Shown piece by piece: positions 462 through 16,817 of a stretch of 21,152 nucleotides of DNA. Below the pieces are notes generated by a model. That model was not told where the DNA came from and searched no databases. It was given only the letters and a program-made list of their open reading frames with translations. The stretch is from Candidatus Baldrarchaeum yapensis (GTDB taxonomy: Archaea > Asgardarchaeota > Baldrarchaeia > Baldrarchaeales > Baldrarchaeaceae): the NCBI GenBank assembly GCA_016840465.1, contig JAEOSH010000041.1, forward strand, positions 1 to 21,152. The letters run 5' to 3'. Numbering within the stretch: the stretch's first letter is position 1; each line of letters begins with the position of its first letter. Both the position numbers and the translations under genes were made by a program.

Positions 462-1016
462 TCACGCATCATCTTTAAACATTATGGGAGGGGTTTTCTT
501 CTCGTGGGAGCGAAGAATTTCAACGTATTTTTGCAACTCGCTTGCAATTTCCCCGATGAGGGCAACTATTGTGTCGCTATTACGCATAAACCTACATAAC
601 TCGGTATACAGTTTTCGAAGCACCGAGTCTACGTCTTCGCACATCTCGATGGAGTCTATTGACCTGAAAATGAGGCTTTTAACCTTTTTCTCAAGTTTGA
701 GAATAAGGGGTATGAACTCCCTGCTGAAGAGGGAAGCTATTGCGAAGATGCCCCATCGCTTCGACTCATTGAAGAATACATAACCGGCTATATCGTGCTC
801 CTGCATATCGAGGAAGGATATGTAGGGGAGTTTAGATAAAAGGGTTGAGCCATAGGACAGCCAGACCTTGACGCGAAGAATCTCGCACACGTTCGGAGGG
901 AGTGCACCCGAGGGATAGGTTGCGAGAAGTTCGGTTCCAGTCACCTGGTTCAGGCGCACAAACGCGACTCCCTTCACTATTCCACTCTTTTTGATACTTT
1001 TAGTCAAATTTTTCAC
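462..1016 (-). CDS. Longin-like domain protein with C-terminal helical region
   Basis: This 184-residue protein has no enzyme motif that I recognise. Residues 16-117 follow the longin pattern: a first strand GVAFVRL (16-22), then TGTELLATYPS (26-36), which resembles the 'GP.vl.syP' hairpin of archaeal longin-like proteins. After that come IAGYVFF (76-82), a strand WGIFAIASLF (88-97) and an amphipathic helix (about 100-117). Residues 120-175 are predicted helical. Longin folds act in trafficking complexes and in GTPase regulation in eukaryotes and are abundant in Asgard archaea. The start is supported by GGTGAT at 1021-1026 and a TATA box at 1054-1061. It lies downstream of the actin gene on the same strand, 273 bp away, and just upstream of the nitroreductase. 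The coding call is firm; the fold call is pattern-based. Confidence 0.7.
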   Translation of the reverse strand: MKNLTKSIKKSGIVKGVAFVRLNQVTGTELLATYPSGALPPNVCEILRVKVWLSYGSTLLSKLPYISFLDMQEHDIAGYVFFNESKRWGIFAIASLFSREFIPLILKLEKKVKSLIFRSIDSIEMCEDVDSVLRKLYTELCRFMRNSDTIVALIGEIASELQKYVEILRSHEKKTPPIMFKDDA

Positions 1017-1289: not shown

Positions 1290-2408
1290 TTAACTCTTCG
1301 AGATCGTAATCCCCAGCTGGTACTGTTTCCTTGTAACACACATCTTGATAAAATTGCTACTGCTAGCAACAACGGATCCACCAACCCACGCGAGAATGTT
1401 CCTTTCCGGAACTGCAAGTACCTCCACGCCGACGTCCTTCATCCCTCTCGCTTTCAGGTCCCTCTCCACCTCTCTCTCGATCCTCTCCTTGAAGCCGGGG
1501 AACATTGTGTTTCCGCCGCTCAGTATGATTCTGGATATGAGTTCCCCACGTATCGTGATGTCGCAGGACAGAATGCTCTCTATGAGGGCTTCGTGCACTC
1601 CGGGGAGATCCTTTCCGATAAGTGAGGGATCGAACATCACTTCCGGCGCCATAAACCTCTCTTGGGACAGAGCGATCTCCGCGCCATCGGAAGTGCTATG
1701 CACCACCTCCACGGATTTGTGGCACAACCTTATAAGCTTCAACTCCATGTCTGGCCTCACTGCCACATAGCAGTATTTTTCCTTGATCTCCTGAACCATC
1801 AGTCTTCCTTTGGTCCCGGAGATGTTATAACCCTGCCTTATGAGCAACCTCATAAGGTGCTCCGAGACATCGGTACCTCCCAGCTCGATTTTCATAACCG
1901 CGGGGTCAATGCAGTACCCCTTGTAAATCGGAGTTATTTGTGTCAGTCCCTCACCGGACTCCACCACAATGCCCGTATCGGCTCCAACGGCGCGCAACGA
2001 GAGGCTCACTTGAGGCATCATGCAGAGTGATGGGACGTTAAATACCTCGAACATTATCTCAAATATCCTTTCGCGGTTCTTCTCCGGGTTCTTAACTGGC
2101 TCTGTCAGCAACACGGGATGCTTTGAGGGATCTATCTTCAGCCCCCTCCTGAATACGAAGTCCCACAGCCTTATCATAGCATCCCAGTCGACGACAACCC
2201 CGCGCCTTATTGGATGCACCATACGTGCTCCTTTTGAGAGAAACGCCTCCCTCCCAACGAGGAAGTCCTGACCACCCTCCTCGGAATGCACCAATCCGAT
2301 CACTGTTGGTATAATGAGACGTGGGCGTGTATCGCCCGCAAACCCAGCTTTTAAAAGCCCCGTGCCATTGTCGATAACGACGGGTGTGGCGTGGGAAAAT
2401 TTCGTCAT
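1290..2408 (-). CDS. Actin-family protein (archaeal actin)
   Basis: The 372-residue protein aligns by eye with eukaryotic actin (375 aa) from end to end, without the large insertions of crenactin. The phosphate-1 loop is VVIDNGTGLLKAGFAGD (residues 10-26). TEPVKNPEKNRE (102-113), IMFEVFNVP (118-126), Gln133 (actin Q137), the adenine-side IKEKYCYVA (208-216), SGGNTMFPG (297-305) and VPERNILAWVGGS (333-345) are all present. The phosphate-2 loop is altered: VESGEGLTQ (149-157) gives Glu150 and Glu153 where actin has Asp154 and Asp157, and Gln157 where actin has His161. The DNase-binding loop is about five residues shorter. A polymerising ATPase cytoskeletal role is expected. The ribosome site is GAGGT about 7 nt before the ATG. 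Whether it belongs with crenactins, lokiactins or another clade cannot be decided by eye. Confidence 0.95.
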   Translation of the reverse strand: MTKFSHATPVVIDNGTGLLKAGFAGDTRPRLIIPTVIGLVHSEEGGQDFLVGREAFLSKGARMVHPIRRGVVVDWDAMIRLWDFVFRRGLKIDPSKHPVLLTEPVKNPEKNRERIFEIMFEVFNVPSLCMMPQVSLSLRAVGADTGIVVESGEGLTQITPIYKGYCIDPAVMKIELGGTDVSEHLMRLLIRQGYNISGTKGRLMVQEIKEKYCYVAVRPDMELKLIRLCHKSVEVVHSTSDGAEIALSQERFMAPEVMFDPSLIGKDLPGVHEALIESILSCDITIRGELISRIILSGGNTMFPGFKERIEREVERDLKARGMKDVGVEVLAVPERNILAWVGGSVVASSSNFIKMCVTRKQYQLGITISKS

Positions 2409-2454
2409 CAGTGTTACCTCTCATTTCTATAGTTGGAAGTGGAGCCAGGTCTAC

Positions 2455-11027: not shown

Positions 11028-11303
11028 TTACGAAAATGTCTGAAAATTACTTAAACCGAAAACTGTTTCAGACCCCCCTATTTCTTCGATCGCGGCAACC
11101 TCGGCGACCCAGGTCGCTCCCCTTCCCCCGTACTCTGGTGGGAATCTCAAGCCCAGCAGTCTTCTTTCCGCGGCCATCTGTATAAATTCCTTTGGGAATT
11201 TTACTTCCTCGCGTTCCATTTTCCTTATAAGTTCGGGGTCGATCGACCTCGCAAACTCCTGCGCCTCTTCCTTTATCTTTCTCTCCTCAGGCGTTAGCAA
11301 CAC
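11028..11303 (-). pseudogene. Acyl-CoA dehydrogenase remnant, N-terminal end
   Basis: The first 75 residues read LTPEERKIKEEAQEFARSI, then a helix ending MAAERRLLGLRFPPEYGGRG and WVAEVAAIEEIG. This is the classic N-terminal helical domain of acyl-CoA dehydrogenases, which oxidise acyl-CoA thioesters with FAD. The frame runs into unrelated residues and a TAA at 11028, giving 91 residues where an intact enzyme has about 380-400. A GAGGAGG ribosome site and a TATA-like CTTTATT remain upstream, so a short product may still be made. The matching C-terminal end lies at 10645-10830. Start codon GTG at 11303 or the adjacent TTG. Confidence 0.82.
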
Positions 11304-15936: not shown

Positions 15937-15968
15937 CCATCTGCCGAAACTCCTAAATGGTGGAACCG

Positions 15969-16817
15969 ATGGTGAGCACCGAGGAATTGAAGAGTGCATT
16001 TCTGGATCTGCTGGAGAAGGACAAGGAGTTCCGGTACGCGGTTGCGGCGCGGATAGGGCTACTGGAGATACTGCAACGTCTCGATGGGATAGAGAATGGT
16101 CAGAGGAAGATCTGGGAGGAGATAAAGAAGATCTGGGAAGAAATTCGGAAGCTTCGGGAGGAGCAGACGAAGATATGGCAGGAGAATCGGAAAATATGGC
16201 AGGAGATAGAGAAGCTAAGAAAGGAGCAGACGAGAACCTGGGAGGAGATTCGGAAGATATGGCAGGAAATCCAAAAGTTGCGGGAGGAGCAGACGAAGAT
16301 ATGGCAGGAGATCGAAAAGCTACGTGAGGGTCAGAACAGGATTTGGGAGGAGATTCGGAAGATATGGCAGGAAATAAGGAACATGCGTGAGTCGTTCGAG
16401 AAGAGGTTTGAACAGATAGATGCGAGGCTCAACAGGGTTGAGAGGACGCTGGAGAAGCTCACGCTGGAGATGGAGGAAGAGGCACGGGAGGTTGTCAGCT
16501 ACCGGCTCAGGAAAATGGGAATTCACGTGGATCTGGACGTTCTTAAGCTTCCCGATATGGAGATAAACCTCTACGGCGCGACGGAGAAGGTGTGTGTTAT
16601 CGGAGAGGCGAAGGTGAGGGCGGGCATAAGCGCGGTCCAAGAACTTGCGGATAAATTTGAGAGGCTGAAGAAGCTATACTCGAGCCTCCTCCGGGAGAAA
16701 ATAATACTGATTCTATACGTAACGACGGCGACTCCCGGTGCCATCGAGGAGGCCAAGAAGAGAGGTATCTGGATTTTGAAGATGACCAAAGATCTGACCC
16801 CACCTCCCAAGATTTGA
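15969..16817 (+). CDS. Tryptophan-rich coiled-coil protein with nuclease-like C-terminal domain (DUF3782-like)
   Basis: Three parts are visible. An N-terminal helical region (1-45) is followed by 14 uninterrupted heptads (46-143) of the form x-K-I-W-E-E-I or x-K-L-R-E-E-Q, a long coiled coil. The C-terminal domain (about 160-282) resembles the PD-(D/E)XK nuclease-like end of DUF3782-type proteins of thermophilic archaea: MEINLYG (197-203), GEAKV (212-216, the ExK motif), then a helix and IILILYVTTATPGAIEEAKKRGIWIL. The acidic residue expected in the first motif is Asn200, so activity is uncertain. The ATG at 15969 has GGTGG at 5 nt; an ATG at 15957 is a leaderless alternative. It is monocistronic by context. 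Role unknown; a structural or nucleic-acid-associated function is inference. Confidence 0.85.
   Translation: MVSTEELKSAFLDLLEKDKEFRYAVAARIGLLEILQRLDGIENGQRKIWEEIKKIWEEIRKLREEQTKIWQENRKIWQEIEKLRKEQTRTWEEIRKIWQEIQKLREEQTKIWQEIEKLREGQNRIWEEIRKIWQEIRNMRESFEKRFEQIDARLNRVERTLEKLTLEMEEEAREVVSYRLRKMGIHVDLDVLKLPDMEINLYGATEKVCVIGEAKVRAGISAVQELADKFERLKKLYSSLLREKIILILYVTTATPGAIEEAKKRGIWILKMTKDLTPPPKI
16104..16397 (+). repeat. Coding heptad repeat array (14 units of 21 bp)
   Basis: Fourteen consecutive 7-residue units carry Trp or Arg at the fourth position in the order WWR WWR WWR WR WWR. At the DNA level stretches of about 30 bp recur almost exactly, for example at 16240 and 16345 (105 bp apart, five heptads) and at 16155 and 16281 (126 bp, six heptads). 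The array therefore grew by in-frame duplication. Confidence 0.85.

Follow-up and report, generated by a model that had tools for sequence, protein, structure and literature searches.

A divergent second actin with a rewritten phosphate-2 loop in a Baldrarchaeal genome: a candidate actin-related protein

Eukaryotic actin-related proteins (Arps; Arp2, Arp3 and others) arose by duplication of actin, have weaker filament contacts and act together with actin. The descent of Arps from actin is one of the unsolved problems in the origin of the eukaryotic cytoskeleton, and its steps can no longer be read from the eukaryotic Arps, which are too old. Asgard genomes encode Arps in addition to lokiactin, and the history of these genes is one of gain, loss and duplication (PMC9834061). 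Judged from titles and abstracts, none of the papers searched that name both Baldrarchaeota and actin deals with a Baldrarchaeal actin.

In F-actin the attacking water is bound by Gln137 and is activated by a bridging water that Asp154 and His161 keep in place; the Q137A/D154A/H161A actin had no measurable ATPase, and Q137A alone was slow (PMC9646518). The phosphate exit gate of actin is made of Arg177, Asn111, His73 and Gly74, with R177-N111 as the back door, and a second plausible phosphate route involves His73-Arg183, with Arg183 contacting Asp157 (PMC10643162). Crenactin has an enlarged hydrophobic plug, and its DNase-binding loop (D-loop) is a main longitudinal contact too (PMC5173319).

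The window gene and its changed residues

The window is the whole stretch of DNA analysed (21,152 nucleotides). Its actin gene encodes 372 amino acids on the minus strand (1290..2408; ATG at 2408, stop at 1290-1292), and the plus-strand reading of the same interval was interrupted by stops. A Shine-Dalgarno-like GAGGTAA was read directly from the sequence 5' of the ATG (2414..2420, minus strand), and codon usage (0.76) was similar to that of the neighbouring genes (0.72-0.76). The Pfam Actin profile (PF00022) matched over the full length of the protein (316.5 bits, E 2.7e-94, cut-off 27; profile positions 3-398 of 410), in agreement with the original prediction of an actin almost from end to end, and every solved-structure match listed was an actin. 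Structure prediction with homologues gave a pLDDT of 61, too weak for active-site geometry, and its Foldseek matches were actins.

Alignment with rabbit actin and actin-family sequences placed the phosphate-2 (P2) loop, equivalent to actin 154-161, at 1938..1961 (minus strand), where it reads ESGEGLTQ as against DSGDGVTH (D154E, D157E, V159L and H161Q). The Gln137 equivalent (residue 133; codon 2010..2012, minus strand) was kept. Both observations had been predicted, as had a D-loop shortened by about five residues: the remnant LVHSEEGGQD (2265..2294, minus strand) lies in an interval, from I-V-G to V-G-x-E-A, of 20 residues vs 25 in rabbit actin. The body had been called insertion-free, which was nearly so; one small Arg-Gly insertion was present in subdomain 3 (1443..1448, minus strand). 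Three separate codons, the intact frame, the Shine-Dalgarno-like motif and the neighbour-like codon usage indicate that the window actin is neither chance nor a sequencing slip.

The phosphate-release gate, overlooked earlier, was also rewritten. By alignment, all on the minus strand, the sensor loop had the equivalent of E72R and H73R (2202..2207), the Pro-rich loop read PVKN for A/P-P-L-N (2088..2099; P109V and L110K, with Asn111 kept), and R177K (1890..1892) and R183T (1872..1874) affected the back door and the Asp157 contact described for actin (PMC10643162). Both partners of the Asp157-Arg183 pair were changed (D157E, R183T). The window actin was thus changed at Asp154, Asp157, His161, His73, Pro109, Arg177 and Arg183, and kept Gln137, Asn111, Gly74, Asp11, Lys18, Lys213 and Glu214, together with the complete P1 loop (7/7). 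This pattern would be expected if ATP binding was kept and hydrolysis and release were retuned, and the original expectation that hydrolysis and filament dynamics should differ from those of eukaryotic actin was judged right. Changes in P2 would not by themselves predict a loss of hydrolysis or assembly, because crenactins polymerise with Glu154 and Gln161.

Canonical actins and rabbit actin have 198 conserved sites in common, of which the window actin had lost 87. With contact sets based on the published literature on F-actin and not on coordinates, losses amounted to 20/26 conserved sites on the pointed-end face (Fisher p 0.0005), a further change that the original prediction had missed, 18/34 on the barbed-end face and 4/14 between strands. 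The nucleotide site lost 7/25 conserved sites, and no conserved glycine was lost (0/23). The distribution of losses points to a constrained fold with one face released. The pointed end of an ordinary filament could be joined and blocked by a subunit whose own pointed face does not work; capping would be one possibility only, and a specific capping model is weakened by the erosion of the barbed face.

A survey of 137 distinct actin-family sequences, mostly Asgard, included 99 canonical ones, rabbit actin among them. D154 and H161 were found in 99/99 and D157 in 96/99 canonical actins, and His73 was invariant in the canonical Asgard actins. The loop ESGEGLTQ was unique to the window actin among the 137 sequences; Glu154 was also present in crenactins and in several of the divergent Asgard actins, Glu157 in a further three divergent actins, and Gln161 otherwise only in crenactins. 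Across 227 Asgard genomes, the DNA pattern for E-x-G-E-G-hydrophobic-T-Q had two matches, the window gene and a second place; the genome of the other match had its sole actin on another contig, so that no other actin of the 227 genomes had this type of loop.

Other unusual actins were seen in the same material. Genomes of family f10 (G046:C40, G052:C119) had two divergent actins head to tail, and in two genomes of this family both actin matches lay inside one open frame of 717-743 aa, as if in a fused actin dimer. At G056:C32:282378-286744 and G016:C391:500-4836, an N-terminal actin piece lay in a 1650-aa frame about 3 kb from the remaining match, which reads as a split actin or a giant insert.

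No conserved operon was found around the window actin, a solitary gene with gaps of about 200 bp on its upstream side and about 270 bp on its downstream side. The downstream gene (465-1016, minus strand) encodes 184 aa with no Pfam match, longin/roadblock-like to the eye; its relatives, all weak, were confined to this order, family f6 and a single further Asgard genome, and its structure predicted alone had a pLDDT of 38. Elsewhere in the window, 11028-11303 (minus strand; 91 aa) contained the N-terminal domain only of an acyl-CoA dehydrogenase and is probably a gene remnant, and 15957-16817 (plus strand; 286 aa) encodes a repeated coiled coil (IWEEIRKLREEQTK) with a C-terminal domain nuclease-fold-like to the eye.

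The ordinary actin of the same genome

The source genome, from an Asgard archaeon, was 96% complete and the sole genome of its family in the sample; its order includes Candidatus Baldrarchaeota MAG_95 and Yap30.bin4.67. The genome holds a second actin, not noticed in the original prediction, which alters the interpretation. This copy (G000:C7) is ordinary, with DSGDGVTH and a full D-loop (27 residues over the interval, 7 more than in the window actin). It was the closest relative of the window actin (52-53% identity), followed by the actins of the order (47-48%). In the tree of canonical actins the two copies formed a clade (support 100/96) inside the order, and the alternative tree joining G000:C7 with the sister family and excluding the window actin was rejected (p-AU 0.006). 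Two kinds of evidence were independent of tree models: nine rare residues, lacking in the sister family, were common only to the two copies (background mean 0.7), and the two-residue Arg-Gly insertion was common to both copies and the sister family. The original prediction would have been refuted had the P2 substitutions been universal in the closest archaeal actins; they are not, as all of these, including the same-genome sister, have D154, D157 and H161.

A divergently transcribed helix-turn-helix-like neighbour of G000:C7 was kept in MAG_95 (48% identical), which identifies the position of the ordinary copy as the ancestral locus and the window copy as displaced. The two sister-family genomes with actin (91% complete) had one actin each, so that the duplication is specific, as sampled, to the lineage of the window genome; on the tree it came after this family had separated from the order's other sampled family. 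The branch of the window actin measured 2.3 to 7.3 changes per column vs 0 to 0.13 for the sister copy. Trees, rare residues and locus together indicate that the window copy is a displaced, fast-evolving duplicate of an ordinary Baldrarchaeal actin.

The predicted helix-turn-helix protein divergently transcribed next to the canonical actin in the two families of the order (L001:2808-3506, L091:1860-2567; 48%) may be an actin-linked regulator. The window genome also contains a gelsolin-like gene (G000:C19:2153-2338), and some actin regulation therefore probably exists there. Profilin had no match in the window genome and sub-threshold matches in both sister genomes with actin (L172, L173).

The window contig belongs to the source genome, as indicated by a tetranucleotide correlation of 0.951 with other stretches of that genome (0.28-0.34 for the sister family) and by a core gene of the window, whose best match was in the same order. 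A binning error, in which the contig would come from another organism, could account for the GC content of the window (50.2% vs 44-45% around the ordinary actin), but sampled contigs of the genome spanned 42 to 50% GC, with the window at the high end, and the window actin was sister to the actin of the same genome; together with the tetranucleotide profile and the core gene, this makes such an error extremely improbable.

The window actin is known from one genome only. In GTDB r220 contigs, an alignment query found canonical-type Asgard actins, and the window protein alone found no relative; viral contigs had no relative either. The record L117 (WJJB01000268.1), titled Candidatus Bathyarchaeota, had an Asgard-type actin and its match was in family f29 of the Asgard genomes (G185:C201), and its label is probably wrong.

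Resemblance to crenactins and competing explanations

The original prediction placed Glu154 and Gln161 in crenactin, and nine crenactin-type sequences (four above the NCBIfam cut-off) agreed, with EGGHGNIQ, EGGHGNTQ or EAGHGNTQ and Gln137 kept. It also proposed a crenactin-like active site, which held at 154, 161 and 137, and failed at 157, where crenactin has His, not Glu; three of the four crenactin residues Glu154, His157, Gln161 and Gln137 were thus present, and the resemblance was local. The crenactin-like patch was confined to 136, 154, 161 and 163, with no excess elsewhere over other divergent Asgard actins: the window actin had changed to the crenactin residue at 9/55 sites (16%), vs about 7-21% in those actins. 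The hydrophobic plug aligned to that of actin without insertion, and the crenactin model NF053560 scored 38.6 bits with the window actin, far from its cut-off of 630. Identity to crenactins was 21-23%, and higher in the sister copy (23-29%). Crenactin ancestry of the window actin was weighed and rejected. The idea of an actin body carrying a crenactin active site gave way to that of a duplicated Asgard actin in which a few positions would have converged on crenactin, and the resemblance is read as local convergence.

Import of the active site from a crenactin gene, by gene conversion or transfer, would explain why Pro136-Gln137, Glu154, Gln161 and Thr163 match crenactins, and the split joining the window actin with crenactins was not rejected (p-AU 0.196). 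That split places the distant crenactin branch on the longest branch, a known long-branch effect. In the tree with crenactins, a test of canonical Asgard actins as a clade excluding the window actin gave p 0.03 but carries no weight, since rabbit actin and two other rows also broke this clade. The residues between the matching ones disagree (SGEGL vs AGHGN), identity to crenactins is below that of the sister actin, the rate of crenactin-like change is the same as in other divergent Asgard actins, and the genome has no crenactin, its only matches to the model being the two actins far below cut-off. Such an import has next to no likelihood. A second self-assembling actin, hydrolysing ATP in the crenactin manner through Glu154, Gln161 and Gln137 and assembling, with its minimal D-loop, into a filament of its own with different packing, would be possible but unlikely. 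Crenactins with these three residues form F-actin-like double filaments (PMC5173319), the window actin has Pro136, Glu154, Gln161 and Thr163 in common with korarchaeal-type crenactins, and the interstrand set was fairly well kept. The D-loop and the subdomain 4 face, however, were the most eroded, residue 157 is Glu and not the crenactin His, and D157-R183, R177 and H73 were all changed. Loss of function after duplication, with drift since, is suggested by the very long branch and the 87 lost sites, but the intact frame, the ribosome-binding site, the neighbour-like codon usage, the retained glycines, the complete P1 loop and the concentration of loss on one face make a decaying duplicate improbable.

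The preferred explanation, given a probability of about 0.62, is that the window actin would be a young, lineage-specific, ATP-binding Arp that forms no normal F-actin and is probably a partner of the ordinary actin. The evidence shows duplication of an ordinary Baldrarchaeal actin, with one copy still at the ancestral locus and the other located elsewhere and evolving far faster. This second copy retained the fold and, within the nucleotide pocket, the phosphate-1/Mg side; its changes fell on the proton relay (D154E and H161Q, Q137 being retained), on the Asp157-Arg183 pair, on the pointed-end face (D-loop and subdomain 4) and on the phosphate-release gate (H73R, P109V, R177K). It may still bind ATP-Mg, with slow hydrolysis or altered phosphate release, and would probably not be extendable into ordinary F-actin at its pointed side; as an end-binder or a nucleation or capping factor, like eukaryotic Arps, it would serve the ordinary actin and not form bulk polymer. 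A bolder form of this explanation takes the protein as an early actin-to-Arp transition, with relay, Asp157-Arg183 pair and gate rebuilt together and converging on crenactin, and with a nucleotide-gated subunit, lateral face intact and no working pointed face, capping or seeding filaments of its sister; this is doubtful.

The worth of the pair lies in an ancestor-like copy still at its old locus in the same genome. The similarity of the two proteins is sufficient for swapping domains and reconstructing ancestors, and the pair could test which changes of active site or surface make a polymerising actin into a partner. The window actin also shows natural variation in those residues of hydrolysis and phosphate release that are currently under mutational study in eukaryotic actin.

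Comparison with known actins and Arps

The window actin resembles the canonical Asgard actins (lokiactin family, with the sister copy) in length, fold, P1 loop, Gln137, Arg-Gly insertion and rare residues, and its phylogenetic position is among them. It differs from them in the P2 loop, where D154, H161 and nearly always D157 are the rule, in the shortened D-loop, the sensor and Pro-rich loops, R177, R183 and the subdomain 4 face, and from its sister also in locus and in the far slower evolution of the latter. Crenactins of Thermoproteota and relatives (NF053560) share Glu154, Gln161, Gln137, Pro136 and, in most, Thr163 with it, and differ in His157, the longer hydrophobic plug and the D-loop. 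Among the divergent Asgard actins (Arps), the VVEIGDSxTR group (family f3, mostly Lokiarchaeota records) is likewise a divergent actin beside a canonical one with D154E, but has D157 kept, Arg161 and no Gln137, and forms a separate clade (100/100). Eukaryotic Arp3 keeps DSGDGVTH and has insertions, unlike the window actin, and there is no orthology with eukaryotic Arps, because the window actin nests inside the Baldrarchaeal actins. With Arps as a class it has in common that it is a divergent paralogue beside a canonical actin, with relaxed filament contacts and the fold kept; as Asgard Arps were already known, it adds a variant and not a new class.
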